Shown here: positions 18,925 through 59,962 of the stretch, piece by piece
Layout: every line of letters begins with the position of its first letter
Position numbering within the stretch: position 1 is the stretch's first letter
The notes under the pieces: model-generated
Told to the model about the DNA's origin: nothing
Database searches by the model: none
Seen by the model: only the letters and a program-made list of their open reading frames with translations
From: Lathyrus oleraceus
Taxonomy: Eukaryota > Streptophyta > Magnoliopsida > Fabales > Fabaceae
Assembly (NCBI RefSeq): GCF_024323335.1
Contig: NC_066581.1
Coordinates: forward strand, 177,561,330-177,625,329
Reading direction: 5' to 3'
DNA: 64,000 nucleotides
Made by a program: the position numbers and the translations under genes

Positions 18925-18988
18925 GTAACAGACAAAACCAAACAGACATAACAGAAATTTAAACTTTGAAATAACTCAGAAAACTGAG

Positions 18989-19203: not shown

Positions 19204-19427
19204 AAAGCCTTTAAATCTGCAAAAAAGCTGTGGTTAGTGATTTTCATATATTTGGTCATGATCACGCTTTGTTTATATGTCTTTAATAATTATAGTAGCT
19301 TTAGGATAACGTGAAAAAGGATATGGTGGGTAATGTGATGCATTTGTTCGTAGACTTGCATGATGGTCTTTTGTCATCATCGAAACTTGACATCGTATGT
19401 TGTATGAGACTTTGTCTTTACAACAGA

Positions 19428-20330
19428 GAGAATCCGTGAAATAAATCAATGGAAGGACTCGAGCTGACTCGAAGATGCATGCATTTGGGAATATGCCAAT
19501 ACAGCAAAATTATCCGTAACGGGTACTTCGGATAAAAATCCGGACTCAGGTGGGGATGTCCACTAAGGACTCAGCTGAGGAAATAACAAATGAGGTATTA
19601 CCGGTTACTGGGTAATAAACTCAAAAAGAGATCATGTGATCCCACCGGCATAAGGGTGAGGGAAAAACATTCTCCGGGAGAATGAATATCTAAGACCGGT
19701 ACAAGGGTGAGAGATATCAAACATCCAAAACGTCTGAGGAAGACCTAAAAGGTACATTTCAACTCAAGGATTCTGACTTCACAGGGGACAAAAAGGCCAT
19801 AATAGGGAGCAGAAGGAAGGAACACCAGGGATGCCGGTTACTGGGCATATAATAGGTGACCAACCAAAACGTGAGATGGGGAATATTCTCAAGACACTCA
19901 TCATCCGAAAGAGGGCTAAAAGAAAACTCGATTATGGGATGGACATTCAATTCCAAAAAGGGATACGAATCTTACTCAACTGGGGAAGAACAAAAGGCTT
20001 CGACCAAAAAGTGCATGAGATATATTATCTATTACCGTCAGAATATATATAATATACTCGCATGGAAGATTATCCACAACCGGTTACTGGGTTAATAAAG
20101 GATAAATCGACCGACAAAGAAAGGCATCGGGATACCGAAACTAGGTATATAAAGATGACCATTCAGGGGAACAACAAACATTACCGGCAATCGGTATATG
20201 AAAGATGACTTGCTGGGGATAAAATGCCTGATCAGAGCAATTATCCAAAAGAATGAGGGAATATCAACACCAAATATTGGATAATGATAACCGTCAAGGA
20301 GGGGATTACATCTACCGGATACTGGGTAGA
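19428..20330 (-). other. Ogre A 3' UTR, right part
   Basis: Non-coding. It holds short inverted repeats such as TATTACC-(8)-GGTAATA, ATGCC-(8)-GGCAT and TTATCCG-(12)-CGGATAA, at offset +10,252 from their copies at 9344, 9579 and 9258. Apparent ORFs here are read-through of repeats. The first part of the 3' UTR and the end of integrase are missing, since integrase joins 3' UTR-type sequence near 20330. Confidence 0.8.
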
Positions 20331-32995: not shown

Positions 32996-33000
32996 CCACC
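32996..33000. other. Target site duplication of Ogre C, left
   Basis: CCACC directly before the Ogre C LTR, repeated at 53558-53562 directly after it. Confidence 0.92.
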
Positions 33001-36000
33001 TGTAGCGGTGTATTCGTCGCTATATGATCTATCGATTAAATCATAAGCTATGAGATACATTGAAATTTCGAGTCGCCACCGCACTTTTATTTATCCAAAG
33101 GACTGGCTAAAAAGCGAACAAAAGCCTAAGAAGTTTTACACGTAGAAAACTAATAAAAAGATCAGAGATTCTGGGTAAGGGGTAAATTACGCAATGGGAA
33201 GGTGTTAGGCACCCACTACGTCCTAGGTACTCCTAGGGAGCCCTTTTCACACTTGTTGTAAAATATTGTTATTTGTTATGACATAAAGATTGTGCAAACA
33301 TGATTGGGATGATGAGAAAAGAATGTACAATTTTTATTAGGTTATTGGGTTCGAACGGATGAACCCGTTGCCTACGTACCTTCCATCAAAGGTAAGGATC
33401 AGAACGCCGTAGTTCGGCTAAAAGATTTCCAAAAGTTGGTGGACTCAGTTTTAAACACAAGCACTGAGGCTTTTCATTATCAATGGGAGAAAACTCGACC
33501 AAGAAACAACATCCACCATGCGAGGATAGCTTCGACGTACTAGAGGGGTTAGCCCTGTTTTCAGTACGGAAGTCTTACTGTCGACTCACTAAGGATAGGC
33601 AAGATTTACATCAACCACAAAGATAATTGAAACCTATGGCTAATGCATGAAAAGATTAATGGACAAAGCCAAAACAAGTGAATGAGTGGAGTTAATTGAT
33701 TGTGATTATGAAAGTGAAGTCAAAGTATGATTAAGATTGATTCAAAAGAAGTATTATGAAAATGAGTTTGAAAAAAGGTCAAGGACTTGGGGTCCAGGTT
33801 TTTAGTTAGAAAAACATGAAAATGTTTGCACAACACTTATGTTAAGTTTGAAAAGTAAAGTGTGAAAAGGTTTAGGACATAATGAATGATGAATGGATGA
33901 AGGATGGATAGTAAAACTTCTTAGAAGGTTCACTTCTTGAAATCATATGGCAGATGATTCAAGTGTGTCCTTTGGAATAGCAATTAATAATGACAAACAA
34001 ACAAAGCAAGCAAAAGCGGATATCGGATGCCAATCACTGGTCTTATACCAATCTCCTAAAACAAAATGGGATATCAGATGCCACTCAATGGACTTACACT
34101 AATCTCCACAGGCAAAGAAATAAAAAGCGGATACCGGATACCAATAAATGGATTTACACCAGTCTCCTAAAACAGAACAGGATCTCAGATGCCACTCAAT
34201 GGACTTACGCTAAATCTCCACAGAAGAAAACAAGAATGAAACAGGGAAGTCAACTGCCAGTTTGTCTGGACTTAGGTTAACTCCACAGTATGATCCTAGG
34301 AAATCCAATGCCACATTACAGGGACTTACAATGGATCCTCACATACAAGAACAAAAGCAACAATATGATCACAGGAATGCAAATGCTAACTTACAGGGAC
34401 TTATAATTGCAACCTCTCACACAAACAGATGAACAAACTATGATCACAGGAAAGCAGATGCCAACTTACAGGGACTTATAACTGCAACCTCACATACAAA
34501 TCAAACAGATCAAATTATGATCACAGGACAACAGATGCCAACTTACAGGGACTTATAACTGTATCCTCACATACAAACAGATAAACAGAAGATATGAGTG
34601 ACCAATGAGGTCTTACACTCTATCCTTCCATATCCTAGGAGCAAATGCCAAAGCAATGGACTTACAATTGTCCTCAATGGGCAAACAACAATGATAGCAC
34701 ACAAGCAAATGAGAGGATCATGCACTAATGGCAATTGATGATGATGATAAATGCATAGCATACAGGCAAACAAGTGCACATGAAGCAATCAATCAATCAA
34801 TGAATAACAAACAGCACACTCTATAGCCAAACAAGGGGGCTCACACAAGAGGGTTTGACTTTGAAAGTCCACTGTAATAGGTAAGGGTCGCTCTTAACCT
34901 TGCCATTGAGAGGCTAAGGTGAAGCAGATGAAAGGAGATGAGGGGTGTGCCTCATTGCTTCTATCCCTGATCAGGGAGAGCATATAAGAAAGTGTGGGAG
35001 TTCAGAAAGTAGGAACTCTCTCCACATTATTGACTCGATTGATCTTGGGTTTTTTATCTCAATGCTTCAACCATGTAATGGGAGCAAGGAGAGGACACAC
35101 TGAATAGTGGGGGATAGATTGCTTATCCCTACCTTCCACCAATTGCCTCAAATGAGGACTTTTCCTGCTTGGGACAATTTTACAAACACAGGCATTGCCT
35201 CTTAAGGAGGACTTCAGACAGTTTGCCCGGTCAAATAACAGACCGGGTCTCCAGACTACATGAAGAAGAAAGGTTTATACCTTAAAGCAAATGCTAAAAA
35301 GCAAAGCAAGCAAGCAAGTTCAAAGAACTTGAGCAACTAAAGTACCTGAAAAAGTCAAACTTATTAGCAAACAGTTCAACAGTCAAAATCAAAGGCAAAT
35401 GGATAAACAAAAGTCAACCACAGAGGGATCAATTGTGCAAGGCACAAAGACTCAAGCATATGAGTCACCTACAAAACAAAAGTTAGCACATTAAACAATC
35501 AAACTAAAACACATTTGAATGATCCTCAAGGCATTGGTGCTTAACCTGAAACAGATGAACTCAACATAAGCTTAGAAGACCACTAGGACTAGCCCAGGGT
35601 CAAAGATGAAAGAAAAAGTCAAGGCAGCAAGGAAAAGTCAACCCAAACCAAGTCTAAACATTCAAGAAGCATTCTCAATTGGATTCATAACCAAATCATG
35701 CATCATGGTCATTTCATATGCAAAAGGATGCAAAGCATGGCAAGAGAAGCATACAAAAGTCAACAGCAAAGACTTCATCCAAAAGTCAACTCAAACAATC
35801 TCAAAATTTATGAAATAAATCACACTCAATCCTAACATCTAACATGGCAAGCATGTCAAATTTCATGGCATTTGGATGAGAGGAAGGCAGTCAAGTAAAA
35901 TCATGAAGTCAAACCAAATTCAAGTAAGCATGGTGAAAGTCAACAAGCATAGGTCAACTTCAAAAAATCATATCAATTTGAAAACAGAAGAGAAATGAAT

Positions 36001-39000
36001 GAGATTAACACCAATGCAAAGCTCAAGATGTCTAGTTATCACATATGAAATTTCATGGTCATACAATAAGATTTGAGAATTTCACAAAAGATATGGCAAT
36101 GTGTATCACAAAAAGTCAACAAATGACTAAGCATGGAAGAAAATTCTCAAATAAATGGAAAACAGCATGATTAATTCCAAGAAAATTCATACATAAACTA
36201 GACATGTGATAGATGATTCATGCAAAACTTGGGGTCAATTGGATAAGAGGAAGCATGTGAACAAAAATTGGGAAAATACATGATCATGGTATAGCACCAA
36301 ATGCAACACATAACTTCAAAAATTTGTAACTCACAAACCACAAATGGGAAATGCATAAACTCTATATGGAAACAAAGGTCAATGTGTCTAGTTTCACCAC
36401 AAAAAATTTCAAAGGCATTGGATATAACATGAGTATTTCACAATTGGAATGGCACAATGTATCAATTTTGCATACATGTTGGAAAAACAATTATCATTAA
36501 AAATCCAGACAATGAAAAATTAATTAAAATTCACAATAAAATAGAGGACACATTCATGAGTTTAATGCAAAAAATCCCACAATTTTTGGAGTTAAAATGA
36601 ATTAGAAATGAATTATGGAAGTTGAGTGACATTTGGATGAAACATGAGCAAATAAGCATGGCATATGGGGTCAACCAAGTCAACCGATGGCACAGATGTA
36701 ATTATGCGCTCACTTATCAAAGCTGCGCGTTTGGCAAGGCAAAACGAAATGTTTTGATTGGCTCTCAGCCAATAAAACAGTAACCAGCCAATCCATTTCA
36801 AATTTCATGAGTTTCAAAACCCTAGGGTTTAAGCATGGCAAAGGCATTGGCAACAACAGCAGCACACAAACTCGACCAGCAACAACATCATGCAATCATC
36901 ATGTAGGCATCAAGCAAACAGCATGGTAAAACAATGTTCTTCATGACATAACAACAACACAACATAAGCATGAAAATCTGGGCAGGGTTATGTTCATGTA
37001 ACAGCAGCAACAACATTATACAACAGCACATAAACAGCAGGACATTGGTACAGGAGCATCAATCAATACCAACCAAAACACGAAATTCAAATTTCTGGAA
37101 ATTAAAACATGTAAAGCTCATGAACAGCAGGGTTCTATGATTTTAGAAACAACAGCATACAACCATCATCATCATTCAAACAGCAACCAAACAAAAGCAT
37201 TCAATATTTCACATGGATTTTCTGGTCATGATGTTTGGTTCAAATAACAGCAGCATTCATCATCCTTCATCATTTAAATCATCAATCATAAACAAATTTC
37301 CAGTAGACCTATTCACACAGCATGGCAACTAAACAAAGATGTTCATACTGCATCCTAGCAACAACCAAACAAACAACCAATCGAGCAAATGCTGGGCAGA
37401 GCTATGTTCAAACAACAGCAAAGCATCATGTAAGCATTATAAACAAACATCAAGCAACATCAACCAACGACCAAACCAACATTACTCATGGAAATTCTGA
37501 ACAGGTCATAAATTTGCACAGCAGCAGCATAAATTCATCATCATGCATTCGGCCAAGAACAAAAATTCCAGAAACAGCAATCAAGCATATCATTAGCTTC
37601 AGCATGCATCAAACAACATAAATATGGTAGCCATTTCCATCAACTTCATGCAAACTAAACAAATCGAACCAAAATGCATTTGTACATGAAAATGAGATTT
37701 CAGATTTAAAGCAATATAGTCAACCATTTAACATGATTCAAGCTACAATGGAACAAGCATGGAAAGGACTACAAGACACATGGCATGTTTTGATGAAAAG
37801 AGAAGGTCGAGGGCTTACTTGTTTTTGAAGAAAAACTGGAAATAGTGATGGAATGATGTTGCTGTGCTTGAAAAGATGCAGGTCCAAGTTGGTAATGATG
37901 ATTGTTTGAAGCAACTTGACTTAATCAGCTCAAATCCGGCTCGAGTTCACAATGCCATGGCTGATGCTTGGTACAAAACAGAGTGAGAAAATGAAGCTCC
38001 AGCTGGTGATTAAAGACCCAAAAGGTTTCCAAAGGTTGGCAGGATGTTGAAGGATGCAAGGGAACTCGTGGTCTTTGAGGGTTTCTTTCAAATCGAGCCA
38101 AAATGCAAAGTTGCAAGAGAGTAGAGAATGGAGTTTTTCTGTTTGGTGGCTGTGATTCCCTAGGGTTCAAATGACAGAAAACTTCCCTTATGTAGTCTGT
38201 TTAAAGCCCTTTAATCAAATGGTAAACTTGTTTATGCTTAATGACACATTTTGCAATTTTTCTAATTGGCATGTAAGTGGAGATTGGAGGGTGTAGGCTG
38301 CTCAAATGGGCCTTGGTACAGACAGCAAATGACCAAACAAAATGCTGTTTGTGGTCTGCACATCAATTGTTAACATGTCCTTGCTTATTGAAACCAAATG
38401 TACAAATTGCCAACTTTGAATAAGTGTAAAATGGAGGTGTGAATTTGGTCGAAATGGGCCTCACAACAGGCTGGAAATGATCATGTTTTTTGCTGTTTTG
38501 GTTGTACATGTGAAATGCTGTACTGATTTTACTTATGTGAAGCTTCTTGCAAAATTTTCAAGTTTTTGCATTTTGGTCAAAATGATGGTGTAATGGTGGT
38601 ATGGTTATGATTTTAGGCTTGGAACAAATCACAAATGATATATGGAACATTTCCCCATTGGCCAAATCAAGAAAAAGTCCATAAATCAAAAAGTCAAAGT
38701 TTGGTCAAACTTTGAATTTAAATGAAAAGGTCCAAAAATGCCATTTTGAATGGTAAGGTTTTAGGTCATGAAATTTATATTTTTGGAAAGAGGATGAAAA
38801 ATGTGGTTTGTAGGAAAAAACCCCACCAAATTTGGCCTTATGGTTTGAGAGATATGGCTTGTTGAAGTTCAAAAATTGATGAAAATGAATTGATCATATC
38901 TTGACAACCACACATGGGATTTGGGAGTTCTTGGACTTTTTGAAAATGGGAAGACAAGATCTTCAACTTTCATGTTGGGCAAAAATTCATTTGAAGCTTG

Positions 39001-39641
39001 TATCATGATGTAAGTTGAGGATCAAGAAGTTTCCATTTTTGGCAGTTGAAATTACAGGTCCACTTTCTATTTCTGGAAAATTTCTGATTCTACTTGAAAT
39101 TCTTCCATGATGAGGTTTGACATGATAGATGAGACTTATACAAGCATGAATGAGCTCCTTCAAATCAATTCTATCCATTAAATCATTGATTAAATCAACT
39201 GTTGACCAAGTTTGACTTTTCTAGGGTTTTGGATGATTGGACCACTTCTGATGAAATCCAAACCCTAATTCCTTGAGAACTTGACTTCAAATGATGTCCC
39301 AAGTTGTATGAACTCTTGATTAATGATCATGGTGCCCAAATTCTGCAAGAATGGCCACCATCCATTGCTTTGACTGATCAATGACTGACTTTGACCTAAT
39401 TTCTGATGATTGCTTCAACTGCAAGCAACAAGGTTAGACTGACAATATTTTTGTACTTTTTGGTTAATAAACATATGAAAGCAAAGATATACAAATGCAA
39501 AGTATGCTTGGTGATCAAGAAATCAACCCACAAGGCAACCTACCCACTAAGAGGGGACAAAGGCATGCAATGATCCTTGAGGCCATGATATGAATGATAT
39601 GGGCCATGAGGGATCTTAGGGCCCAAAATTGGGGTCTTACA
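33001..39641 (-). repeat. Ogre C 3' LTR, 6641 bp
   Basis: TGTAGCGG to GGGGTCTTACA. About a dozen differences from the 46918-53557 copy are visible over the whole length. It contains tandem repeats near its outer end (34010-34590) and a low-complexity AACAGCAGCAAC-rich stretch around 36850-37600. The small ORFs occur in both LTRs and show no family features. Confidence 0.93.
34010..34590. repeat. Tandem repeats inside the Ogre C 3' LTR
   Basis: Four copies of a 75-77 bp unit starting TATGATC at 34289, 34364, 34439 and 34516, each containing ACTTACAGGGACTTA. They are preceded by looser ~60-bp repeats of a GGATAYCRGATGCCA phrase from 34010. The same array is in the other LTR at 47927-48507. Confidence 0.85.
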
Positions 39642-39656
39642 GATGCCCCTATTTAA
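39642..39656 (-). other. Ogre C polypurine tract
   Basis: The minus strand reads TTAAATAGGGGCATC directly next to the LTR terminus TGTAAGACCCC. The same sequence occurs at 53661-53675 for Ogre B. Confidence 0.85.
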
Positions 39657-42600
39657 GGTCATTCTAGCCGGAGAAGTGAAGTTTAGAAATCTTTATCTCG
39701 ACGCGGTAGAATGGGCTTAAATAACAGTAATGAGACAAATTTTGGTCCCTAAGAGACCTCATGATGCAAATGTATGTATGCAAAAGACACAAATTCTGTG
39801 GGGAATATGATTCACACAGAAGAAAAGACGATCCATCGGAGTAATACACTCACCAGGAACAGAGACTCTAACAAGACTCTAATTGGGGATAATAAAAGAA
39901 AAAGAAATGTGTGAACAAAACACGCCTCCAAACTGGGGAAAAACAAAACTGACATAACGTGAACAAGACACGACTCTGATTAGGGAACAACAGAAAACAG
40001 ACAGGAGAACTCACTGGGGAGTGAAGGACTCACACTGGGGAAAAGAATTCCAAAGGAAAATAAATCCATTGGAGAGACACAAGCTGACTCCTGAGGAGAA
40101 GCAACAAAAAGTTCCACTGAGGGAAGTAATAAAGCAAATGAGATGTTACCAGGCATACGGGTAACAAAACAGGAAAATCTGACTCCACAGGGGGACCGAG
40201 GTCATAATAGGGAGCAGAAAGGAGGGAACACCAAGGATACCGGTTACTGGGTATATAATAGGTGACCAACCAAAGCGTGAATTGGATTTCACTTCCAAAA
40301 CACTCATCATCCTGAAGAAGGCTAGAAAAGCAAACTTGTTTATAGGATGGATATTCAATTCCACAAGGAAAATGAATCTTACTCAGAGGGGAAAATAATC
40401 AAAAGATTGACCCAAGAGTGAACGAGATATAATATCCATTACCGTCAGAACGTGGATAGAATACTCAGATGATATATATTATTCATTACCGGCAGACCGT
40501 GAATAATATACTCGAGAGGAAAATTATCCTGAACCGGTTACTGGGTTGTTTATAGGATAAAATCCGAAGACGTGGATTGGTTTTCACTTCCAAAACACTC
40601 ATCATCCAAAAGGAGGGCTTGAAAAAGCAAATCGACTTAGGATGGGCATTCGAATCCACAACGGGAAAATGAATCTTACTCAACTGGGGACACAAACCCA
40701 AAGAGTGCATGAGATATAATATCCATTACCGGCAGACCGTGGATAAGAATACTCGCATGAGATATATTATCTATTACCGTCAGAACGTAGATAATAAACT
40801 CGCATGGTGAGAAACACCAGAGATACCGGTTACTGGGCATATAATAGGTGATCTACCGAAGCGTGAATTGGTTTTCACTTCCAAAACACTCATCATCCAA
40901 AACACGAACTGGTTAAAGGATGGCTATTCGATTCTACAAAGAATACGAATCTTGCTCAGTTGGGGAAAATCAACAAAGGATTCCAACTAAAGAGCGCATG
41001 AGATATATTATTCATTACCGGCAGACCGTGAATAACATACTCGAAAGGAAAAGACACCAGAGATACCGGTTACTGGGTATATAATAGGTGACTAACCAAA
41101 AAGAGAGACAATCGATACCAAGCATACGGGTAAACGAAAGACAACTCAAAGGGATAAATTGCAAGCATCCGGCAATTTATCCAACAACAAGAAAATATTC
41201 GACTCCGCAAAGGGAAAAAACGAATCTTACTCGACTGGGGAAACGCAAAAGGCTTCGACTGAAGAGTGCATGAGATATATTATTCATTACCGGCAGACCG
41301 TGAATAATATACTCGCATGGAAGACTATCCACAACCGGTTACTGGGTTAATAAAGGATAAATCAACCGAACAGAAAGGCATCGGGATACCAAATTAGGTA
41401 TATAATGATAACCAATCAAAAGGAGCAACAGACATTACCAACAAAGGGGTAAATGAAAGGCGAACTGCTGAGGATAAATTGCAAGCATCCGGCAATTATC
41501 GACAGAAGACTAGCTGGGGATGCACTGGTAAACAACCAATGATCCGGGGAACAAATCACTAGCATACGGTGAAAAGACCCACTGGGGATAAAATTGCTAG
41601 CATACGGCAATTATCCACAAAAGACTTGCTAGGGATATAAGTGCTGATCTGAGCAACTTATACAAGCAAAGGAAAATCATCATCAAAGACTAGATGAAGA
41701 TAACCACAAAATTAGGGTTTACATCTACCGGATACGGAGTAGAAGACCAACAACTCCACGCGGGGATAGAACAAATCACAAATCCGCACGGGAAACCAAA
41801 ATAGGGTTTATAACAAACCACAAAACCGCTGGAGAGCTGGAAAATAGGATTTACAACTACCGGGTAGTAGGTAGAAAACCAAAACTCTGGCTGGAGAATA
41901 AAAGGTGTATAACCACAAATTCTGTTAAGAAAGCCAGGAAAAGATAGGACTTATAACTACCGGGTATGAGGGTAGAGGCCCAAAAACATTCCGCTGGGGA
42001 ACAACCCACTGGGAAGCACAAGACATTTGACAAATAGCCAATTCGGGAATAATCCGAAAAGACAGACTGAATCAAGACACGTCCTAATGAGGATATAACT
42101 CAAATAGGAAAATCCATCCCAATATATGTGTTGGGAGGGAACAGAAGAAACCGTCATCCACGAGGATATATCTCAGTGGGGAACTGCAGAAGGAAAGACA
42201 ACATTTTCTGCTTATGGGGTTGACTCTATATGGAGAGATTTATAACACCCGACATCTGCTTGGGGAGATCTGTAAAGAGATCTATATCACCGTAGCAGGA
42301 GACACGGCAAACAAAAGATATATGGCAAGAAATGCAACATGAATATCTGAATGTTTTATGAGTATGCATGAATATGCGTGATTTATGTTTGATGAATGCT
42401 GACAAAACAGACAATTCTAACACAAACAGGTTCAGGAACAAAACGTCCGGTATTATACTTCCAGGAGAAAAACCAGCTGGAGAGCCAATCTGCGGAGATC
42501 CACATGCTGAAGAGCAAAGATCTGCAGGTACTGCTGAAGAAGCAGAGAATCATAGATATCAGGAAACAACCCAATCCAGGGTACAGAAAGTCACAACGGG

Positions 42601-44132
42601 CAAAAACAGCCACCAAGACAAATCTGTAGGGGAACAAGAAAAATCCCAAAGTATATCTGCAGGGAATCCCAGTGTCAACTGAGAAACAACAAATGCATGA
42701 GCACGAACTGCTGTAGAAGCAAGTCCAAACAACTCCGTTGGGGGTCCACCCACTGAGGGAGAATGATATCATCCAAATAGAATCTGACTGCATAAGCAAT
42801 TCTACTGGGGAAAACTGTCGGCTACTCTCTTGGGGATCAAACCGCTGAGGGAGGACAGATCAAACAAGTAGATTCTGCAACGAACCACTCCACTTGGGGA
42901 GAATACACATAGCAAACTGACCACAATAAGTAGATTCTGCGATATAAGCCACTCTACTGGGGATCACATACAGTCAGGAAATCAATCCGTTCACTGGAGG
43001 CAAAAGCCATCATCCGACCATATCGGGGATTGAAAGAGTATTCAACAGGCAAAACTGCCACAACAAACATCCTGCAGACGAAGCTGAGGAAAAGATGGAT
43101 GCAATACTAGGATATCAACCCAAATCCAAACTGCTCAGGAAAATAAATCCTGCTCTGCTGAAGAGAATAACTCTGATGGAGAGATAGCAACAATTCCACA
43201 GACGACTTCGCCGGGGAAAAGGTAAAGTACCGGGTATCAAACCACTGACTTACCGAATCTTCAAAAAAGAAAGCAATCATGCTGAGGGAACAGACCAATC
43301 CTGCTAGCACACTGCATGGGGAAAAGAGATAACAACTCCACTTGCAACCCTGGTGGGGATATTAATAACAGCTCTACTCGCGACTCCGAGGGGAGTACCA
43401 ATCAATCAGCTATACTCATGACTGTGCTGAGGAGACAAATAAAGTCTGGGGATACAACCCACTGGAGAAAGTGACGGGGTACCAGGATAACAAACCATCA
43501 ACCACCGAAACTTCACAAGAAAACACCCATGCTAGGGAGAACTGCTGCTGGAGAGAGCGAAGTCTTCAACAACAAATCACTTGCGACTGTACCGGGGAAC
43601 AACCCCAACAACGACTCTGTTTGAGGAACAGCCTCAACAAAGATCTGAAGAAAGAAGATACCACCAAACCAGGAATATGAACGAATGTCTTACCTGTTGG
43701 AAATCATGCCACCCTCGGGAGAGCACTGAGATATTCTTGAGTATCCTTTCAATCTTGTGGATGTTCACTTTGTTTAAAACAAAAATTTTGAAAAATTGAT
43801 TTGTTTAAACAATGATATTTTATCAATTTAAAACATGCAAAACATTTGTTGAATTGAAACAAATAAGAGTGCAAATAAATGGATAAAAAGCTCAAATTGA
43901 TTTGATAGAATGGTAGTCTGCAAATGGCAAGACTCCATAGATCTGTACAAAGTTGAAATCAGTGATATATATTGGAAGAGGGCTACATTGAACATAATGA
44001 TCCTTTCTCTACCAATTTGAATCTCGATGTATCCGAAGCTTCAGTTGACGACGAATCGAGAATCTTCTGACGAAAAGACGGCTGATGAACCAGAAAGTCT
44101 TGTTAGGACGCAGTTACTTGCCAAAATCCCTA
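39657..44132 (-). other. Ogre C 3' UTR, hairpin-rich and repetitive
   Basis: 4.5 kb without a credible gene. From 40140 to about 42000 it is built from repeated phrases containing short inverted repeats: six copies of the TATNNA/TNNATA hairpin, ATACC-(8)-GGTAT-type hairpins, and an 11-bp perfect stem at 41152-41182. From 42200 on it is less repetitive and rich in CTGGGGA phrases. Apparent ORFs are shadows of these repeats. Confidence 0.8.
40433..41306 (-). repeat. Six covarying hairpins in the Ogre C 3' UTR
   Basis: 26-bp hairpins at 40433-40458, 40480-40505, 40720-40745, 40768-40793, 41009-41034 and 41281-41306. Each has a six-base outer stem (TATTCA/TGAATA, TATCCA/TGGATA or TATCTA/TAGATA), an inner three-base stem (CGG/CCG or CGT/ACG) and the loop TCTG on the minus strand. 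Both arms always match. Stems extend to 9-11 bp in several copies. Confidence 0.85.
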
Positions 44133-44289
44133 ATTTTTGCCTAGATTGCCCCAGAGTGAGGTACTCAATCTAGCGGGATGCAAATATTCTTTTTTCCACA
44201 GTCTCTAATTTTTGCCTGGATTACCCTTGCGGGTTCTCCACTGAGACGCTCATTTTTGCCTAAGCCGCCCTTTCGGGTTTTCAACTTAG
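44133..44289 (-). ncRNA. Triple stem-loop cassette after integrase (Ogre C)
   Basis: In the minus-strand RNA, starting about 50 bases after the integrase stop: stem 1 CTAAG/CTTAG (44260-44289) enclosing CCC-GAAA-GGG; stem 2 TGGA/TCCA (44217-44240) enclosing ACCC-GCAA-GGGT; stem 3 CTAGATTG/CAATCTAG (44141-44173) enclosing GAGT/ACTC. Each 3' arm is followed by GGCAAAAAT. Two loops are GNRA tetraloops. It is a predicted structure in the element's RNA, not an independent gene. Ogre B has the same cassette. Confidence 0.65.
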
Positions 44290-44340
44290 CGAGCTATTCT
44301 GTTTTTTCATTCTCTTTTTTTCATTTGCATATACTTTTTT

Positions 44341-44679
44341 CTAGGCAAAGTATCTCTTAACTACATCTGAATTCACAGGACGAGTGAAATCCTCCCCATC
44401 CATTGTTGTAAGCATCAAAGCACCGCCTGAGAAGGCTCTCCTAACAACATATGGACCCTCGTAGTTTGGAGTCCACTTGCCCTTGGAATCGGGCGCGAAA
44501 GACAAAACTTTCTTGAGCACAAGGTCACCTTCTCGGAACACACGAGGCTTGACCTTCTCGTCGAATGCTTTCTTCATTCTCTGCTGATATAGCTGACCAT
44601 GACACATGGCAGTTAATCGCTTTTCTTCGATTAAATTCAGCTGGTCATAACGATTCTGAATCCATTCAGCATCAGTCAA
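44341..44679 (-). pseudogene. pol: Ogre C integrase, C-terminal remnant
   Basis: About 112 codons matching the C-terminal part of Tat-lineage integrases: RYDQLNLIEEKRL, CHGQLYQQRM, FREGDLVLKKV, GKWTPNYEGPYVV and SGGALMLTTMDG. The integrase zinc finger and DDE core are absent upstream, replaced by the A-rich junction. It has no obvious use by itself. Conservation of the frame relative to Ogre B probably reflects youth. Confidence 0.9.
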
Positions 44680-44776
44680 CTAGGGACTTGAGGGTATAAT
44701 TTTCTTTTTTCTTTTGAAAAATCTTAAAAAAATTTTGCTGATTTTTGATTTTTCTTATTTTTCACCCTCTTTTTTT

Positions 44777-44816
<40 letters not shown>

Positions 44817-46911: not shown

Positions 46912-46917
46912 CTTTTC

Positions 46918-49900
46918 TGTAGCGGTGTATTCGTCGCTATATGATCTATCGATTAAATCATAAGCTATGAGATACATTGAAATTTCGAGTCGCCACCGCA
47001 CTTTTATTTATCCAAAGGACTGGCTAAAAAGCGAACAAAAGCCTAAGAAGTTTTACACGTAGAAAACTAATAAAAAGATCAGAGATTCTGGGTAAGGGGT
47101 AAATTACGCAATGGGAAGGTGTTAGGCACCCACTACGTCCTAGGTACTCCTAGGGAGCCCTTTTCACACTTGTTGTAAAATATTGTTATTTGTTATGACA
47201 TAAAGATTGTGCAAACATGATTGGGATGATGAGAAAAGAATGTACAATTTTTATTAGGTTATTGGGTTCGAACGGATGAACCCGTTGCCTACGTACCTTC
47301 CATCAAAGGTAAGGATCAGAACGCCGTAGTTGGGCTAAAAGATTTCCAAAAGTTGGTGGACTCAGTTTTAAACACAAGCACTGAGGCTTTTCATTATCAA
47401 TGGGAGAAAACTCGACCAAGAAACAACATCCACCATGCGAGGATAGCTTCGACGTACTAGAGGGGTTAGCCCTGTTTTCAGTACGGAAGTCTTACTGTCG
47501 ACTCACTAAGGATAGGCAAGATTTACATCAACCACAAAGATAATTGAAACCTATGGCTAATGCATGAAAAGATTAATGGACAAAGCCAAAACAAGTGAAT
47601 GAGTGGAGTTAATTGATTGTGATTATGAAAGTGAAGTCAAAGTATGATTAAGATTGATTCAAAAGAAGTATTATGAAAATGAGTTTGAAAAAAGGTCAAG
47701 GACTTGGGGTCCAGGTTTTTAGTTAGAAAAACATGAAAATGTTTGCACAACACTTATGTTAAGTTTGAAAAGTAAAGTGTGAAAAGGTTTAGGACATAAT
47801 GAATGATGAATGGATGAAGGATGGATAGTAAAACTTCTTAGAAGGTTCACTTCTTGAAATCATATGGCAGATGATTCAAGTGTGTCCTTTGGAATAGCAA
47901 TTAATAATGACAAACAAACAAAGCAAGCAAAAGCGGATATCGGATGCCAATCACTGGTCTTATACCAACCTCCTAAAACAAAATGGGATATCAGATGCCA
48001 CTCAATGGACTTACACTAATCTCCACAGGCAAAGAAATAAAAAGCGGATACCGGATACCAATAAATGGATTTACACCAGTCTCCTAAAACAGAACAGGAT
48101 CTCAGATGCCACTCAATGGACTTACGCTAAATCTCCACAGAAGAAAACAAGAATGAAACAGGGAAGTCAACTGCCAGTTTGTCTGGACTTAGGTTAACTC
48201 CACAGTATGATCCTAGGAAATCCAATGCCACATTACAGGGACTTACAATGGATCCTCACATACAAGAACAAAAGCAACAATATGATCACAGGAATGCAAA
48301 TGCTAACTTACAGGGACTTATAATTGCAACCTCTCACACAAACAGATGAACAAACTATGATCACAGGAAAGCAGATGCCAACTTACAGGGACTTATAACT
48401 GCAACCTCACATACAAATCAAACAGATCAAATTATGATCACAGGACAACAGATGCCAACTTACAGGGACTTATAACTGTATCCTCACATACAAACAGATA
48501 AACAGAAGATATGAGTGACCAATGAGGTCTTACACTCTATCCTTCCATATCCTAGGAGCAAATGCCAAAGCAATGGACTTACAATTGTCCTCAATGGGCA
48601 AACAACAATGATAGCACACAAGCAAATGAGAGGATCATGCACTAATGGCAATTGATGATGATGATAAATGCATAGCATACAGGCAAACAAGTGCACATGA
48701 AGCAATCAATCAATCAATGAATAACAAACAGCACACTCTATAGCCAAACAAGGGGGCTCACACAAGAGGGTTTGACTTTGAAAGTCCACTGTAATAGGTA
48801 AGGGTCGCTCTTAACCTTGCCATTGAGAGGCTAAGGTGAAGCAGATGAAAGGAGATGAGGGGTGTGCCTCATTGCTTCTATCCCTGATCAGGGAGAGCAT
48901 ATAAGAAAGTGTGGGAGTTCAGAAAGTAGGAACTCTCTCCACATTATTGACTCGATTGATCTTGGGTTTTTATCTCAATGCTTCAACCATGTAATGGGAG
49001 CAAGGAGAGGACACACTGAATAGTGGGGGATAGATTGCTTATCCCTACCTTCCACCAATTGCCTCAAATGAGGACTTTTCCTGCTTGGGACAATTTTACA
49101 AACACAGGCATTGCCTCTTAAGGAGGACTTCAGACAGTTTGCCCGGTCAAATAACAGACCGGGTCTCCAGACTACATGAAGAAGAAAGGTTTATACCTTA
49201 AAGCAAATGCTAAAAAGCAAAGCAAGCAAGCAAGTTCAAAGAACTTGAGCAACTAAAGTACCTGAAAAAGTCAAACTTATTAGCAAACAGTTCAACAGTC
49301 AAAATCAAAGGCAAATGGATAAACAAAAGTCAACCACAGAGGGATCAATTGTGCAAGGCACAAAGACTCAAGCATATGAGTCACCTACAAAACAAAAGTT
49401 AGCACATTAAACAATCAAACTAAAATACATTTGAATGATCCTCAAGGCATTGGTGCTTAACCTGAAACAGATGAACTCAACATAAGCTTAGAAGACCACT
49501 AGGACTAGCCCAGGGTCAAAGATGAAAGAAAAAGTCAAGGCAGCAAGGAAAAGTCAACCCAAACCAAGTCTAAACATTCAAGAAGCATTCTCAATTGGAT
49601 TCATAACCAAATCATGCATCATGGTCATTTCATATGCAAAAGGATGCAAAGCATGGCAAGAGAAGCATACAAAAGTCAACAGCAAAGACTTCATCCAAAA
49701 GTCAACTCAAACAATCTCAAAATTTATGAAATAAATCACACTCAATCCTAACATCTAACATGGCAAGCATGTCAAATTTCATGGCATTTGGATGAGAGGA
49801 AGGCAGTCAAGTAAAATCATGAAGTCAAACCAAATTCAAGTAAGCATGGTGAAAGTCAACAAGCATAGGTCAACTTCAAAAAATCATATCAATTTGAAAA

Positions 49901-52900
49901 CAGAAGAGAAATGAATGAGATTAACACCAATGCAAAGCTCAAGATGTCTAGTTATCACATATGAAATTTCATGGTCATACAATAAGATTTGAGAATTTCA
50001 CAAAAGATATGGCAATGTGTATCACAAAAAGTCAACAAATGACTAAGCATGGAAGAAAATTCTCAAATAAATGGAAAACAGCATGATTAATTCCAAGAAA
50101 ATTCATACATAAACTAGACATGTGATAGATGATTCATGCAAAATTTGGGGTCAATTGGATAAGAGGAAGCATGTGAACAAAATTGGGAAAATACATGATC
50201 ATGGTATAGCACCAAATGCAACACATAACTTCAAAAATTTGTAACTCACAAACCACAAATGGGAAATGCATAAACTCTATATGGAAACAAAGGTCAATGT
50301 GTCTAGTTTCACCACAAAAAATTTCAAAGGCATTGGATATAACATGAGTATTTCACAATTGGAATGGCACAATGTATCAATTTTGCATACATGTTGGAAA
50401 AACAATTATCATTAAAAATCCAGACAATGAAAAATTAATTAAAATTCACAATAAAATAGAGGACACATTCATGAGTTTAATGCAAAAAATCCCACAATTT
50501 TTGGAGTTAAAATGAATTAGAAATGAATTATGGAAGTTGAGTGACATTTGGATGAAACATGAGCAAATAAGCATGGCATATGGGGTCAACCAAGTCAACC
50601 GATGGCACAAATGTAATTATGCGCTCACTTATCAAAGCTGCGCGTTTTGGCAAGGCAAAACGAAATGTTTTGATTGGCTCTCAGCCAATAAAACAGTAAC
50701 CAGCCAATCCATTTCAAATTTCATGAGTTTCAAAACCCTAGGGTTTAAGCATGGCAAAGGCATTGGCAACAACAGCAGCACACAAACTCGACCAGCAACA
50801 ACATCATGCAATCATCATGTAGGCATCAAGCAAACAGCATGGTAAAACAATGTTCTTCATGACATAACAACAACACAACATAAGCATGAAAATCTGGGCA
50901 GGGTTATGTTCATGTAACAGCAGCAACAACATTATACAACAGCACATAAACAGCAGGACATTGGTACAGGAGCATCAATCAATACCAACCAAAACACGAA
51001 ATTCAAATTTCTGGAAATTAAAACATGTAAAGCTCATGAACAGCAGGGTTCTATGATTTTAGAAACAACAGCATACAACCATCATCATCATTCAAACAGC
51101 AACCAAACAAAAGCATTCAATATTTCACATGGATTTTCTGGTCATGATGTTTGGTTCAAATAACAGCAGCATTCATCATCCTTCATCATTTAAATCATCA
51201 ATCATAAACAAATTTCCAGTAGACCTATTCACACAGCATGGCAACTAAACAAAGATGTTCATACTGCATCCTAGCAACAACCAAACAAACAACCAATCGA
51301 GCAAATGCTGGGCAGAGCTATGTTCAAACAACAGCAAAGCATCATGTAAGCATTATAAACAAACATCAAGCAACATCAACCAACGACCAAACCAACATTA
51401 CTCATGGAAATTCTGAACAGGTCATAAATTTGCACAGCAGCAGCATAAATTCATCATCATGCATTCGGCCAAGAACAAAAATTCCAGAAACAGCAATCAA
51501 GCATATCATTAGCTTCAGCATGCATCAAACAACATAAATATGGTAGCCATTTCCATCAACTTCATGCAAACTAAACAAATCGAACCAAAATGCATTTGTA
51601 CATGAAAATGAGATTTCAGATTTAAAGCAATATAGTCAACCATTTAACATGATTCAAGCTACAATGGAACAAGCATGGAAAGGACTACAAGACACATGGC
51701 ATGTTTTGATGAAAAGAGAAGGTCGAGGGCTTACTTGTTTTTGAAGAAAAACTGGAAATAGTGATGGAATGATGTTGCTGTGCTTGAAAAGATGCAGGTC
51801 CAAGTTGGTAATGATGATTGTTTGAAGCAACTTGACTTAATCAGCTCAAATCCGGCTCGAGTTCACAAATGCCATGGCTGATGCTTGGTACAAAACAGAG
51901 TGAGAAAATGAAGCTCCAGCTGGTGATTAAAGACCCAAAAGGTTTCCAAAGGTTGGCAGGATGTTGAAGGATGCAAGGGAACTCGTGGTCTTTGAGGGTT
52001 TCTTTCAAATCGAGCCAAAATGCAAAGTTGCAAGAGAGTAGAGAATGGAGTTTTTCTGTTTGGTGGCTGTGATTCCCTAGGGTTCAAATGACAGAAAACT
52101 TCCCTTATGTAGTCTGTTTAAAGCCCTTTAATCAAATGGTAAACTTGTTTATGCTTAATGACACATTTTGCAATTTTTCTAATTGGCATGTAAGTGGAGA
52201 TTGGAGGGTGTAGGCTGCTCAAATGGGCCTTGGTACAGACAGCAAATGACCAAACAAAATGCTGTTTGTGGTCTGCACATCAATTGTTAACATGTCCTTG
52301 CTTATTGAAACCAAATGTACAAATTGCCAACTTTGAATAAGTGTAAAATGGAGGTGTGAATTTGGTCGAAATGGGCCTCACAACAGGCTGGAAATGATCA
52401 TGTTTTTTGCTGTTTTGGTTGTACATGTGAAATGCTGTACTGATTTTACTTATGTGAAGCTTCTTGCAAAATTTTCAAGTTTTTGCATTTTGGTCAAAAT
52501 GATGGTGTAATGGTGGTATGGTTATGATTTTAGGCTTGGAACAAATCACAAATGATATATGGAACATTTCCCCATTGGCCAAATCAAGAAAAAGTCCATA
52601 AATCAAAAAGTCAAAGTTTGGTCAAACTTTGAATTTAAATGAAAAGGTCCAAAAATGCCATTTTGAATGGTAAGGTTTTAGGTCATGAAATTTATATTTT
52701 TGGAAAGAGGATGAAAAATGTGGTTTGTAGGAAAAAACCCCACCAAATTTGGCCTTATGGTTTGAGAGATATGGCTTGTTGAAGTTCAAAAATGATGAAA
52801 ATGAATTGATCATATCTTGACAACCACACATGGGATTTGGGAGTTCTTGGACTTTTTGAAAATGGGAAGACAAGATCTTCAACTTTCATGTTGGGCAAAA

Positions 52901-53557
52901 ATTCATTTGAAGCTTGTATCATGATGTAAGTTGAGGATCAAGAAGTTTCCATTTTTGGCAGTTGAAATTACAGGTCCACTTTCTATTTCTGGAAAATTTC
53001 TGATTCTACTTGAAATTCTTCCATGATGAGGTTTGACATGATAGATGAGACTTATACAAGCATGAATGAGCTCCTTCAAATCAATTCTATCCATTAAATC
53101 ATTGATTAAATCAACTGTTGACCAAGTTTGACTTTTCTAGGGTTTTGGATGATTGGACCACTTCTGATGAAATCCAAACCCTAATTCCTTGAGAACTTGA
53201 CTTCAAATGATGTCCCAAGTTGTATGAACTCTTGATTAATGATCATGGTGCCCAAATTCTGCAAGAATGGCCACCATCCATTGCTTTGACTGATCAATGA
53301 CTGACTTTGACCTAATTTCTGATGATTGCTTCAACTGCAAGCAACAAGGTTAGACTGACAATATTTTTGTACTTTTTGGTTAATAAACATATGAAAGCAA
53401 AGATATACAAATGCAAAGTATGCTTGGTGATCAAGAAATCAACCCACAAGGCAACCTACCCACTAAGAGGGGACAAAGGCATGCAATGATCCTTGAGGCC
53501 ATGATATGAATGATATGGGCCATGAGGGATCTTAGGGCCCAACATTGGGGTCTTACA
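46918..53557 (-). repeat. Ogre C 5' LTR, 6640 bp
   Basis: Same sequence as 33001-39641 with a few substitutions and single-base length changes. It ends GGGGTCTTACA at 53557 and is followed by CCACC. The tandem repeats at 47927-48507 match 34010-34590. Confidence 0.93.
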
Positions 53558-53562
53558 CCACC
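53558..53562. other. Target site duplication of Ogre C, right
   Basis: CCACC, identical to 32996-33000. It marks the return to Ogre B LTR sequence. Confidence 0.92.
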
Positions 53563-53660
53563 CACTAGAAGGGAAGCTAGGGCATGCAATGATCCTTGAG
53601 GCCATGATATGATATGATATGGGCCATGAGGGATCTTAGGGCCAAAATTGGGGTCTTACA
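53563..53660 (-). repeat. Ogre B 3' LTR, terminal 98 bp
   Basis: Continues the LTR broken at 33000 and ends in ATTGGGGTCTTACA. The Ogre B polypurine tract follows at 53661-53675. Confidence 0.9.
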
Positions 53661-54475
53661 GATGCCCCTATTTAAGGTCATTCTAGCCGGAGAAGTGAAG
53701 TTTAGAAATCTTCATCTCGACGCGGTAGAATGGGCTTAAATAACAGTAATGAGACAAATTTTGGTCCCTAAGAGACCTCATGATGCAAATGTATGTATGC
53801 AAAAGACACAAACTCTGTGGGGAATATGGTTCACACAGAAGAAAAGACGATCCATCGGAGTAATACACTCACCAGGAATAGAGACTCTAACAAGATTCTA
53901 GTTGGGGATAGTAAAACTGACACAGCGTGAATAAGACACGACTCTGATTAGGGAAACAAAAATCAGACTGGAGACCTCACTGGGGAGTGAAGGACTCACA
54001 CTGGGGAAAAGAATTCCAGAGGAAAATAAATCCATTGGAGAGACACAAGCTGACTCCTGGGGAGAAGCAACAGGAAACTTCACTGAGGAAGCACCAAAGA
54101 AATGAGGTGTTACCGGTATAAGGGTAACAAACTCAAGAAGAATGAATACCTAAGACCGGTATAAGGGTGAGAGATATCAATCAACCGAACATCTGAGAAA
54201 GACCTGGAAAAGGTACATAAACTCAGGAAAATCTGACTCCACAAGGGACCAAAGTCATAATAGGGAGCAGAAAGGAAGGAACACCAAGGATACCGGGTTG
54301 TAGGTATGAAACAGGTGACCGACCAGAGACGTGAATTGGTGTATGTGTCAAAACACTCATCATCCTAAAGAAAGCTAGAACAGCAGACTTGTTTATAGGA
54401 TGGATATTTGATTCTGTAAAGAATGCAAATCTTACTCAACTGGGGACACAAACCCAAAGAGTGCATGAGATATAA

Positions 54476-55814
54476 TATCCATTACCGGCAGACCGTGGAT
54501 AAGAATACTCGCATGAGATATATTATCTATTACCGTCAGAACGTAGATAATAAACTCGCATGGTAAGAAACACCAGAGATACAGGTTACTGGGTATATAA
54601 TAGGTGATCTACCGAAAACGTGAATTGGTATATATGCCAAAACACTCATCATCCTGAAGAAAGCTAGAACAACAGTCTTGTTTATAGGATGGATATTTGA
54701 TTCTGTAAAGAATGCAAATCTTACTCAGTTGGGGAAACAAACAAAGTGTTCGACAAAAGAGTGCATGAGATATATTATTCATTACCGGCAGACCGTGAAT
54801 AATAACCTCGCATGGAAAATTATCCTGAACCGGGTTGTAGGTTGTTTATAGGATAAAATCCGAAGACGTGAATTGGTTTGTGTTCCAAGACACTCATCAT
54901 CCTGAAGAAAGCTAGAACAGCAGACTTGTTTATAGGATGGACATTCGATTCCACAAGGAATACGAATCTTACTCTGAGGGGAAAAACAACAAAGGATTCC
55001 AACTAAAGAGCGCATGAGACATATTATTCATTACCGGCAGACCGTGAATAATATACTCGCATGGAAAGTTATCCTGAACCGGGTTGTAGGTTGTTTATAG
55101 GATAAGATCCGAATACGTGAATTGGTTTGTGTTCCAAGACACTCATCACCCTGAAGAAAGCTAGAACAGCAGACTTGTTTGTAGGATGGACGTTTGATTC
55201 CACAAGGAATACGAACCTTACTCTGCGAAGAAAACAATCAAAAGATTGACTCGAGAGTGAACGAGATATAATATCCATTACCGTCAGAACGTGGATAGAA
55301 TACTCACATGGAAGATTATCCTGAACCGGGTTGTAGGTTGTTTATAGGATAAAAATCCGAAGACGTGAATTGGTTTGTATTCCAAAACACTCATCATCCT
55401 GAAGAAAGCTAGAACAGCAGACTTGTTTGTAGGATGGACGATCGATTCCACAAGGAATACGACCCTTACTCGACTGGGGAAGATCAACAAAGGACTCCAA
55501 CCAAAGAGCGCATGAGACATATTATTCATTACCGGCAGGCCGTGAATAATATACTCGAAAGGAAAAGACACCAGAGATACCGAAGTATATAATAGGTGAC
55601 TAACCAAAAAAGAGAGACAATCGATACCAAGCATCCGGGTAAACGAAAGACAACTCAAAGGGATAGATTGCAAGCATCCGGCAATTATCCAACGACAAAG
55701 AATATTCGATTCCACAAAGGGGTAATAACGAATCTTACTCGACCAGAGAAACACAAAAGGCTTCGACTGAAGAGTGCATGAGATATATTATTCATAGCCG
55801 TCAAAACGTGAATA
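54476..55814 (-). repeat. Seven covarying hairpins in the Ogre B 3' UTR
   Basis: Copies at 54476-54501, 54524-54549, 54776-54801, 55025-55050, 55272-55297, 55523-55548 and 55789-55814. Outer stems are TTC, TCC or TCT types with matching partners; inner stems are CGG/CCG or CGT/ACG. Loops on the plus strand are CAGA, once CAGG and once CAAA. Confidence 0.85.
54640..55450. repeat. ~247-bp tandem repeats in the Ogre B 3' UTR
   Basis: The phrase CTGAAGAAAGCTAGAACA recurs near 54653, 54900, 55150 and 55400, spaced 247-250 bp. Each unit contains one covarying hairpin and a TTATCC...GGATAA inverted repeat. Ogre 3' UTR repeats are a known source of satellite DNA. Confidence 0.82.
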
Positions 55815-56230
55815 ATAACCTCGCATGGAAGATTATCCTTAACCGGGTTGTAGGTTGTTTATAGGATAAAATCCGAAAAGAAAGGCATCGGGATACCAAA
55901 CTAGGTATATAATGATGACCAGTCAAAGGGAGCAACAGACATTACCAACAAAAGGGTAAATGAAAGAAGACTCGCTGGAGATGCATTGATGAAAAATCAA
56001 TGATCCGGGGAATACAATCACTGACAAAAGGTGAAAGGACCCGCTGGGGATAAAATTGCTATCATACGGCAATTATCCACAAAAGACTTGCTGGGGATAT
56101 AAATGTTGATCTGAGCAACTTATCCAAGCAAAGGAAAATCAACATCAAGAACTAGATGAAGATAACCACAAAGAGGGAATTGTCATCGGTTGGGATGAAC
56201 AACAAAGTTAACTCTGCAAGTGGAGAAAAC

Positions 56231-56441
56231 GGGGTTTATAACTACCGGTTTGTAGGTAGAAAACCGCAAAGATAGGACTTACGACTGCCGGTTTGTAGGC
56301 AGAGGGCCAAAAAGGTAGGACTTACAACTGCTGGTTTGTAGGCAGAAGGCCAAAAGATAGGACTTACAACTGCTGGTTTGTAGGCAGAAGGCCAAAAGAT
56401 AGGACTTACAACTGCTGGTTTGTAGGCAGAAGGCCAAAAGA
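56231..56441. repeat. 42-bp tandem repeat, five units, each with a hairpin
   Basis: Units start at 56273, 56316, 56358 and 56400, preceded by a diverged unit from 56231. Each contains an inverted repeat around GGTTTGTA: CTACC/GGTAG in the first, CTGCC/GGCAG in the second, CTGC/GCAG in the rest. Confidence 0.85.
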
Positions 56442-58840: not shown

Positions 58841-58998
58841 ATTTTTGCCTAGATTGCCCCAGAGTGAGGTACTCAATCTAGCAGGATGCAAATATTCTCT
58901 TTTTTTCAAGTCTCTAATTTTTGCCTGGATTACCCTTGCGGGTTCTCCACCGAGACGCTCATTTTTGCCTAAGCCGCCCTTTCGGGTTTTCAACTTAG
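58841..58998 (-). ncRNA. Triple stem-loop cassette after integrase (Ogre B)
   Basis: Same three structures as in Ogre C: stems at 58969-58998, 58926-58949 and 58849-58881, with GNRA loops in the first two and GGCAAAAAT after each 3' arm. Differences from the C copy fall outside the stems. It is a predicted structure within the element's RNA. Confidence 0.65.
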
Positions 58999-59038
58999 CG
59001 AGCTATTCTGTTTTTTTTCATTTGCATATACCTTTTTT

Positions 59039-59699: not shown

Positions 59700-59962
59700 C
59701 TGCATAATGATTTTGGTTAATGAAAAACTTCAGAATTTAAACAAGCAAACCATTATGCAGGTGAAAAGATTGTTTTTGTTTTTCAGGGTTTTTTGTGATC
59801 ACTGATTTCATGAAGAAAAGCAAAAAGTGAAAACAAAGGAAAAACAAATGTTTAACAATGCAATAATTGAATGAAAACATCATTGTATATATGCTTTGCC
59901 AACAATGTCATCACTTCTCCTTTTGGCATGGGAGAAGGGTTTTAAACAGAATGAACAATTAC
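59700..59962 (-). other. Ogre intron (element B), 263 bp
   Basis: Minus-strand donor CAGA|GTAATT at 59962 and acceptor TTATGCAG|GG ending at 59700. It aligns with the introns of A and C. Confidence 0.75.

Follow-up and report, generated by a model that had tools for sequence, protein, structure and literature searches.

Hypervariable tandem repeats are known from the 3′ untranslated region (3′UTR) of Tat/Ogre long terminal repeat (LTR) retrotransposons, where they lie between pol and the 3′ LTR, and few components of Fabeae genomes are larger than the Ogres, which make up 45% of that of L. sativus (PMC7004042, in the portions of the article available here). We analyzed a 64,000-nucleotide stretch of the Lathyrus oleraceus genome (the window; NC_066581.1, positions 177,561,330 to 177,625,329, assembly GCF_024323335.1), which holds three Ogre elements, called A, B, and C below. 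Their 3′UTRs carry a repeated, bulged hairpin, F1, that keeps its pairing while the letters of its stems change. This covariation is well supported, and the sequence suggests that the hairpin has a function. Paired change was observed in three hairpin families, single-arm change is near zero at the variable inner pair of F1, and a 4-nt loop and a 4-nt bulge are constant in the places listed.

The repeats of the window resemble the published Tat/Ogre repeats in location, lineage, and tandem organization (units of ~250–300 bp here), and in being found also in non-autonomous copies without pol; the published account, in its available portions, treats them as variable arrays and sources of satellites, whereas the units described here contain covarying hairpins (PMC7004042). 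The strings ‘hairpin’, ‘palindrom’, and ‘secondary structure’ have no occurrence in that article. Ty3, like Ogre a Ty3/gypsy element, offers a functional parallel: as far as the accessible text of two reports goes, its UTRs and POL matter for localization and packaging, and a hairpin-borne palindrome is a candidate dimerization site (PMC11381356, PMC4974528). That candidate site is 5′, and the Ty3 3′UTR is 214 nt long with no repeated hairpin array, in contrast to the many hairpins in the 4.7-kb 3′UTR of Ogre C (same sources, same portions). In the openly licensed PMC literature searched we found no description of Ogre 3′UTR hairpins, although a prior one in Macas et al. 2009 is possible. Nor did we find there any function stated for the long repeated Ogre 3′UTR.

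Retroviral packaging stem-loops are recognized through a loop or bulge while their stems covary. They usually occur in a few copies near the 5′ leader, whereas the Ogre hairpins are many, lie near the 3′ end, and have a putative docking role. A further comparison is offered by Retand, which we take to be a Tat-type relative of Ogre. As in Ogre, POL and the 3′ LTR of Retand are separated by a long stretch of sequence, with tandem repeats in about half of the elements studied; the feature reported for it is antisense open reading frames (ORFs) rather than RNA folds (PMC11963269, available portions), and ‘hairpin’ and ‘secondary structure’ have no occurrence in that article.

The sense strand of the Ogres in the window is the minus strand, as judged from ORFs and Pfam domains. 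The regions that carry the hairpins of Ogres B and C are:

33001–53557, minus strand, Ogre C, a young copy, delimited by self-BLAST, target-site duplication (TSD), LTR ends, and primer-binding-site region
39642–44340, minus strand, 3′UTR of Ogre C, ~4.7 kb, from the end of an integrase-tail-like ORF to the 3′ LTR
53563–59030, minus strand, Ogre B, start of the 3′ LTR and the 3′UTR up to approximately the integrase tail, from self-BLAST

The carrier has 6.6-kb LTRs, a 5-bp TSD, and, beyond pol and before the 3′ LTR, tandem arrays with periods of 295, 249, and 48. Very long LTRs and a 5-bp TSD are, we assume, defining traits of Ogre in the Tat lineage. The LTRs of Ogre C (33001–39641 and 46917–53557) are 99.83% identical by self-BLAST, the LTR start TGTAAGACC stands at 39641, and the TSD is GGTGG at 32996–33000 and 53558–53562. 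By self-BLAST its insertion site lies ~100 bp within Ogre B's 3′ LTR. Ogre C thus carries the hairpins as a recent insertion, though it has no long ORF of its own: the ORF list shows none of at least 250 aa inside it, and its last coding trace is the integrase-tail-like ORF at 44341–44679, identified by eye rather than by a family search. Ogre B retains, further upstream on the minus strand, ORFs for protease (59959–61980) and gag (62038–63102). A 390-aa ORF of Ogre A (20794–21966) contains RT_RNaseH and RVT_3 domains; a gypsy-type pol with an extra (archaeal-type) RNase H, which also marks the lineage, is thus seen in the window for element A only.

Paired change in the F1 hairpin

In its sense form F1 reads TATTCA-CGG-TCTG-CCG-GTAA-TGAATA, with an outer stem of 6 bp, an inner stem of 3 bp, a TCTG loop, and a GTAA bulge on the 3′ side. 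The helix is often extended outwards (GAG-TATAT / ATATA-T-CTC), with an interruption in TCC-type copies. A first-pass annotation of the same letters had described six copies in Ogre C and seven in Ogre B, with three types of outer stem and two of inner stem. The window search returned fifteen places, every one on the Ogre sense strand, and recovered all of these; the phenomenon proved larger than that annotation had supposed.

40433–40458, minus strand, Ogre C, outer TCC (TATCCA/TGGATA), inner CGT/ACG
40480–40505, minus strand, Ogre C, outer TTC, inner CGG/CCG
40720–40745, minus strand, Ogre C, outer TCC, inner CGG/CCG, in a dimer with the 40768 copy at a 48-bp step
40768–40793, minus strand, Ogre C, outer TCT (TATCTA/TAGATA), inner CGT/ACG
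41009–41034, minus strand, Ogre C, outer TTC, inner CGG/CCG
41281–41306, minus strand, Ogre C, outer TTC, inner CGG/CCG
54476–54501, 54524–54549, 54776–54801, 55025–55050, 55272–55297, 55523–55548, and 55789–55814, minus strand, Ogre B, seven F1 copies, the last with loop TTTG, bulge GCTA, and inner CGT/ACG
20026–20051 and its duplicate 9774–9799, minus strand, Ogre A, F1 with a broken core

The Ogre A copy is counted twice since it lies in a 99.85% repeat; relative to the TCT/CGT type, three changes in its 5′ arm disrupt the core, and the outer flank helix persists. A covariance model of F1 found fifteen copies at E <1e-10, all on the Ogre sense strand, fourteen of which were in the model and the fifteenth of which is the duplicate Ogre A copy; the next matches are palindromic echoes at E of at least 0.3. 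Rfam 15 gave no match, at E up to 1, for 39500–42500, which in this search corresponds to no described RNA family, and collections of viral and genome contigs, scanned for the hairpins and for relatives of Ogre proteins, returned nothing usable.

The thirteen Ogre B and C copies differ at two pairs of the outer stem and at one of the inner stem, and the change is always two-sided. All thirteen are paired, as first noted: none of the 39 cells at these three pairs is non-standard, against a null mean of 10.7 and a null minimum of 1 in 2000 simulations. The null scatters an equal number of changes over a tree built from the flanks and is a home-made procedure in the style of R-scape rather than R-scape itself; under it, pair 4-21 taken alone gives p = 0.09. 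The F1 stem pairs take covariation ranks 1–3 among 262 variable column pairs, sharing the third rank with a flank pair, and by G statistic they rank 2, 3, and 7. The covariation score and the count of cells with two-sided change both exceed all 500 shuffles, and RNAalifold recovers the same nine pairs. The changes had been described as independent and compensatory; the paired change is real, but the copies are not independent, since 40720/40768 and 54476/54524 are one dimer by descent (the same 48-bp unit in Tandem Repeats Finder, TRF).

Genome-wide searches covered the 3.8-Gb assembly from which the window comes (G000, with the window in C3), and their figures count copies, not events. A search that placed no constraint on the four variable outer letters counted, at the variable inner pair, 13,104 copies with G-C and 18,691 with T-A (31,795 paired) but only 35 with a single-arm change (T.C 15, G.A 20), where independence would predict ~7,700 of each single-arm type. 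The outer letters left free still pair in 96 of the 100 T-A matches listed and in 98 of the 100 G-C matches listed. When the loop was allowed 4–16 nt and the bulge 0–8 nt, both were exactly 4 in all 100 matches listed of 10,219. The first-pass annotation had held that its reading would fail if single-arm changes were as common as paired ones in other copies. They are not so at the variable inner pair. They are common, though, at the inner stem's two CpG pairs: pair 6-15 shows U.G in 4,030 copies and C.A in 370, and pair 7-14 shows G.U in 467 and A.C in 643, which sum to 5,510 copies. Post-insertion decay of methylated CpG would appear to explain most of them. Between 368.7 and 374.2 Mb of G000:C4, seven listed F1 copies share two wobbles (T.G outer, G.T inner), a group that probably reflects segmental or array amplification.

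We also fetched 60 stretches (264,760 bases), which contain 244 F1 copies with 43 distinct cores. A TTC/CGG copy with perfect pairing was the entry point to forty stretches and a T-A inner pair to the other 20, so that these types are over-counted. The forty were taken from ~45 element clusters (among 100 listed of 10,219 matches), with five at C1 40.28 and 42.05–43.21 Mb omitted. Copies were gathered ungapped with at most 14 of 46 mismatches, which misses copies with indels; F3 and F5, treated below, were gathered likewise. At the three varying pairs the 244 copies hold 4, 1, and 1 non-standard cells, against null means of 128, 65, and 115 and null minima of 30, 4, and 28 (400 simulations). 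Covariation beyond phylogeny, as the annotation had proposed, thus exceeds tree-based nulls both in the window and in the fetched copies. When the ascertained type is set aside, the 113 other copies of the first 40 stretches still have 108–112 Watson-Crick cells at every one of the nine pairs.

Pairing differs with the spread of a core variant. All eight variants found in at least three stretches are fully Watson-Crick, representing five stem combinations, with the remainder differing in loop or bulge. Variants in two stretches comprise two paired, five with G.U, and one with A.C, and those in a single stretch comprise ten paired, six wobble, and eleven mismatched (11/27). The annotation had ascribed the loss of pairing in Ogre A to the end of selection; what bears on the point is this one A copy, whose core is indeed broken, and the concentration of mismatch in single-stretch variants (11/27 versus 0/8 in those of at least three stretches).

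These counts bear on a rather improbable account without selection, in which a few perfectly paired early masters were amplified with Ogre and recombination moved whole cassettes. Recombination or strand transfer between co-packaged copies is a published hypothesis for these arrays (cited in PMC7004042, available portions), the 48-bp dimer is common to Ogres B and C, the genome-wide counts are of copies, and a few chimaeric hairpins with mismatched halves exist (3 of the 15 T.C copies, by eye). Such founders, if drawn by chance, would include unpaired ones, and none of the eight widespread variants is unpaired. All six outer-by-inner combinations occur, and other hairpin families also show paired change. 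The combinations had been called free; all are present, but unevenly (94, 55, 39, 32, 14, and 2 of the 244 copies). In addition, the T-A inner pair at 55789–55814 sits with a loop and bulge unlike those of common T-A units; TCT units with that type of loop and bulge do exist (3 copies), so that exchange is possible.

Covarying families beyond F1

F1 is not the sole covarying hairpin in the 3′UTR. F3 (28 window copies scored) and F5 (11 copies) also show paired change, which is less perfect. F3 has the form xxCC, an 8-nt loop, GGxx, with loops such as CAGTAACC, TACAAACC, and CTTATACC and the stems AACC/GGTT, ATACC/GGTAT, ATGCC/GGCAT, CTACC/GGTAG, CTGCC/GGCAG, GTTACC/GGTAAC, and ATTACC/GGTAAT. 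F5 is a 10-bp bulged hairpin, ATTCG-T-ATTCC-TTGT-GGAAT-CGAAT, with the paired variants ATTTG/CAAAT, ATTCA/TGAAT, and ATTCT/AGAAT. The copies in Ogres B and C, together with the F2 hairpin, are:

40234–40257, 40528–40551, 40820–40843, 41060–41083, 41329–41352, 41722–41745, 41854–41877, and 41954–41978, minus strand, F3 in Ogre C, from covariance model R2
54107–54130, 54287–54310, 54824–54847, 55073–55096, and 55320–55343, minus strand, F3 in Ogre B, examples within 54107–56726
55837–55860, 56239–56262, 56282–56305, 56472–56495, and 56703–56726, minus strand, F3 in Ogre B, further examples
40353–40377, minus strand, F5 as ATTCA-t-TTTCC-ttgt-GGAAT-TGAAT
40926–40950, 54695–54719, 54943–54967, 55192–55216, and 55440–55464, minus strand, relatives of F5
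41152–41182, minus strand, F2, 11-bp stem GGATAAATTGC/GCAATTTATCC with loop CGGATGCTT

Most matches of model R2 are members of the model by construction. The F3 alignment (A2) has 21 copies, and the 28-copy scoring adds three tandem C.A copies, 55088 and 54839 (beta-type near-duplicates), and two copies with short stems (54165 and 19705); neither set includes the 9-nt-loop copy near 41970. F3 has 18 cells changed on both sides, compared with a shuffled mean of 5.6 and none of 500 shuffles as high, and its stem pairs take covariation ranks 1–3 of 161 variable column pairs. The tally of the F3-beta outer stem was set aside, as it mixed two registers. For F5 (alignment A3, 7 of the 11 copies), four of the five stems common to at least three stretches are fully paired, and a shared T.T exists. 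The F2 loop type CGKATGCYW recurs on several stems, at 40144–40166 (TGTTACC/GGTAACA) and near 41480–41620.

An F3-type array with a 42-bp period lies at 56236–56444 in Ogre B, where three copies (within 56325–56432) have the C.A terminal mismatch CTGCC/AGCAG and a neighbour is fully paired as CTGCC/GGCAG; the mismatched type was found in 11 of the 60 fetched stretches. At 55576–55607, also in Ogre B, a single F3 example has lost the usual loop and reads ATAC-TTCG-GTAT on a kept stem. The TTCG near 55586 is presumably a UUCG-type tetraloop.

Possible explanations: RNA selection, palindrome correction, or DNA sites

We consider it moderately likely that the Ogre 3′UTR is a hairpin array (F1, F3/F2, F5) whose pairing is maintained by selection on the sense RNA and which offers docking sites in cis, most plausibly for Gag in packaging. 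A strand-blind process is expected to yield G.U and A.C intermediates equally often. In the genome-wide copies, sense G.U outnumbers A.C at pair 6-15 (4,030:370) and at pair 8-13 (169:40), which favours RNA, and when the two strands of one CpG are compared, G.U is favoured at both sites (4,030:643 and 467:370). The class of 4,030 includes the TCT, TCC, and TTC outer types among the 100 matches listed. Within the 244 copies the ratio is 22:10 cells (p 0.025), and in F3-alpha it is 16:3. A blind, mismatch-tolerant enumeration of stem-loops points in opposite directions in the two elements, with G.T 9 versus A.C 2 in Ogre C and 3 versus 10 in Ogre B.

The main competitor, somewhat unlikely in our judgment, is palindrome correction, in which the strand folds back as it is reverse transcribed or replicated and, by quasipalindrome template switching, one arm serves as template for the other, so that both would change in a single event without any selection on RNA. 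Such a process is known in E. coli (PMC7202029, available portions). It would account for the passage between G-C and T-A, which lacks a wobble path and yet left so few single-arm copies beside the paired ones. Long perfect stems also exceed shuffles in coding regions: stems of at least 8 bp number 4 versus 0.5 in Ogre B gag-pro and 7 versus 1.4 in the copia element, next to 4 versus 0.15 in the Ogre C 3′UTR. Moreover, the strand bias is missing or reversed at pair 7-14, in F5, and in F3-gamma. Against it, first, correction that acts over both stems would be expected to remove the bulge of F1, yet the bulge is still 4 nt in all 100 matches listed of 10,219. Second, the process is strand-blind, yet G.U exceeds A.C at two pairs. 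Third, it should repair single-arm changes at CpG, yet 5,510 such copies persist.

A highly improbable variant is that the palindromes act as DNA, in the form of a cruciform or a dimeric DNA-binding site. Perfect inverted repeats look alike on double-stranded DNA, the strand-asymmetry results are mixed, and folding of the antisense strand is no worse than that of the sense strand. In F1, however, the stem letters vary and the loop and bulge are mostly constant, the opposite of a DNA half-site; arms of 3–6 bp with a bulge would make poor cruciforms, and G.U is in excess at two of the three inner pairs. A further idea, that the GTAA bulge is a decoy for splice sites, was considered and set aside.

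Folding of single copies as RNA returns the F1 core in all five of the Ogre B and C copies folded (z -4.00, -1.95, -1.60, -1.35, and -3.67). The segment 41271–41316 (F1 41281–41306 with 10-nt flanks) has a minimum free energy (MFE) of -15 kcal/mol and z -4.0. F5 gives z -4.20 and -5.67, F2 gives z -4.65 (41151–41182), and folding of the Ogre A copy does not return the core (z -0.57).

Several results weigh against selection on the sense RNA. Three of the five F1 copies (z -1.95, -1.60, and -1.35) fold only slightly better than shuffles, and single F3 hairpins no better (z -1.06, +0.61, and +0.46). Across the proximal 3′UTR, windowed folding favours the antisense strand, whose z lies below that of the sense strand by 0.57 in Ogre C, 0.45 in Ogre B, and 0.87 in Ogre A, an advantage perhaps due to the T-rich sense strand. 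At pair 7-14 the asymmetry is reversed (G.U 467, A.C 643). Without the class of 4,030 the totals are G.U 636 versus A.C 1,053, so that the strand bias depends on one class, which amplification of one or a few lineages may have inflated. By distinct cores the 244-copy ratio is only 17:9 (p 0.08), and the comparison is unbiased or reversed in F5 (9:9), F3-beta (1:1), and F3-gamma (15:23). Pair 6-15 shows little compensation, the double change to T-A occurring in 72 copies versus ~47 expected by independence. In the F1 and F3 alignments (A1 and A2) the number of pairs with two-sided change does not exceed chance, being reached in 160 or 100 of 500 shuffles for F1 and in 89 of 500 for F3. Finally, some shared F3-gamma variants have C.A (in 11, 5, and 2 stretches).

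The first-pass annotation had allowed for either a selected RNA fold or palindrome correction in DNA. The covariation itself stands, and between the two we lean, short of proof, to an F1 array that acts as RNA rather than DNA. Under selection on the sense RNA, the fold would operate as RNA, its stem letters drifting while pairing is selected, and the hairpins would be repeated docking sites in cis for an Ogre-encoded or host RNA-binding protein. The likeliest reader would be the Gag/nucleocapsid of a helper Ogre, in genome packaging or dimerization; a host RNA-binding protein acting in export or stability is an alternative candidate. The tandem array would multiply the number of docking sites, and recombination between co-packaged RNAs probably shifts hairpins between units.

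We put forward a wider proposal tentatively, as possible rather than probable: the hypervariable Ogre 3′UTR repeats, a source of many Fabeae satellites, may be a multivalent RNA device. In it, hairpins of several families, their loop types set and their stems covarying, would attract the particle protein of helper elements and so let coding-dead Ogres such as C spread; the derived satellites would then start as structured RNA modules. This suggests that satellites born from an Ogre 3′UTR could inherit RNA structure. Covariation on a genome scale makes a role for the 3′UTR testable, namely which protein, if any, reads the hairpins and whether they decide the spread of defective copies. Moreover, natural variants of a single fold are present here by the tens of thousands within one genome, which makes them rare data on compensatory change.

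Neighbouring features of the window

A Ty1/copia element sits in the 3′UTR of Ogre A, with TCTGT flanking its LTR ends by eye. The segments 7420–10837 and 17671–21089 form a 3.4-kb direct repeat of 99.85% identity that joins Ogre RNase H, Ogre 3′UTR, and copia LTR; it looks like the product of a ~10.25-kb tandem duplication and then LTR loss, or else of an error in assembly. Near the integrase tail of Ogre C, a plus-strand poly(T) of 45 bases (44770–44814), which is poly(A) in the Ogre sense, may be where a small inserted retroposon ends. At the left of the window, another element carries a cluster of ATACGCGTAT palindromes in tandem repeats of ~20 bp (5584–5873).

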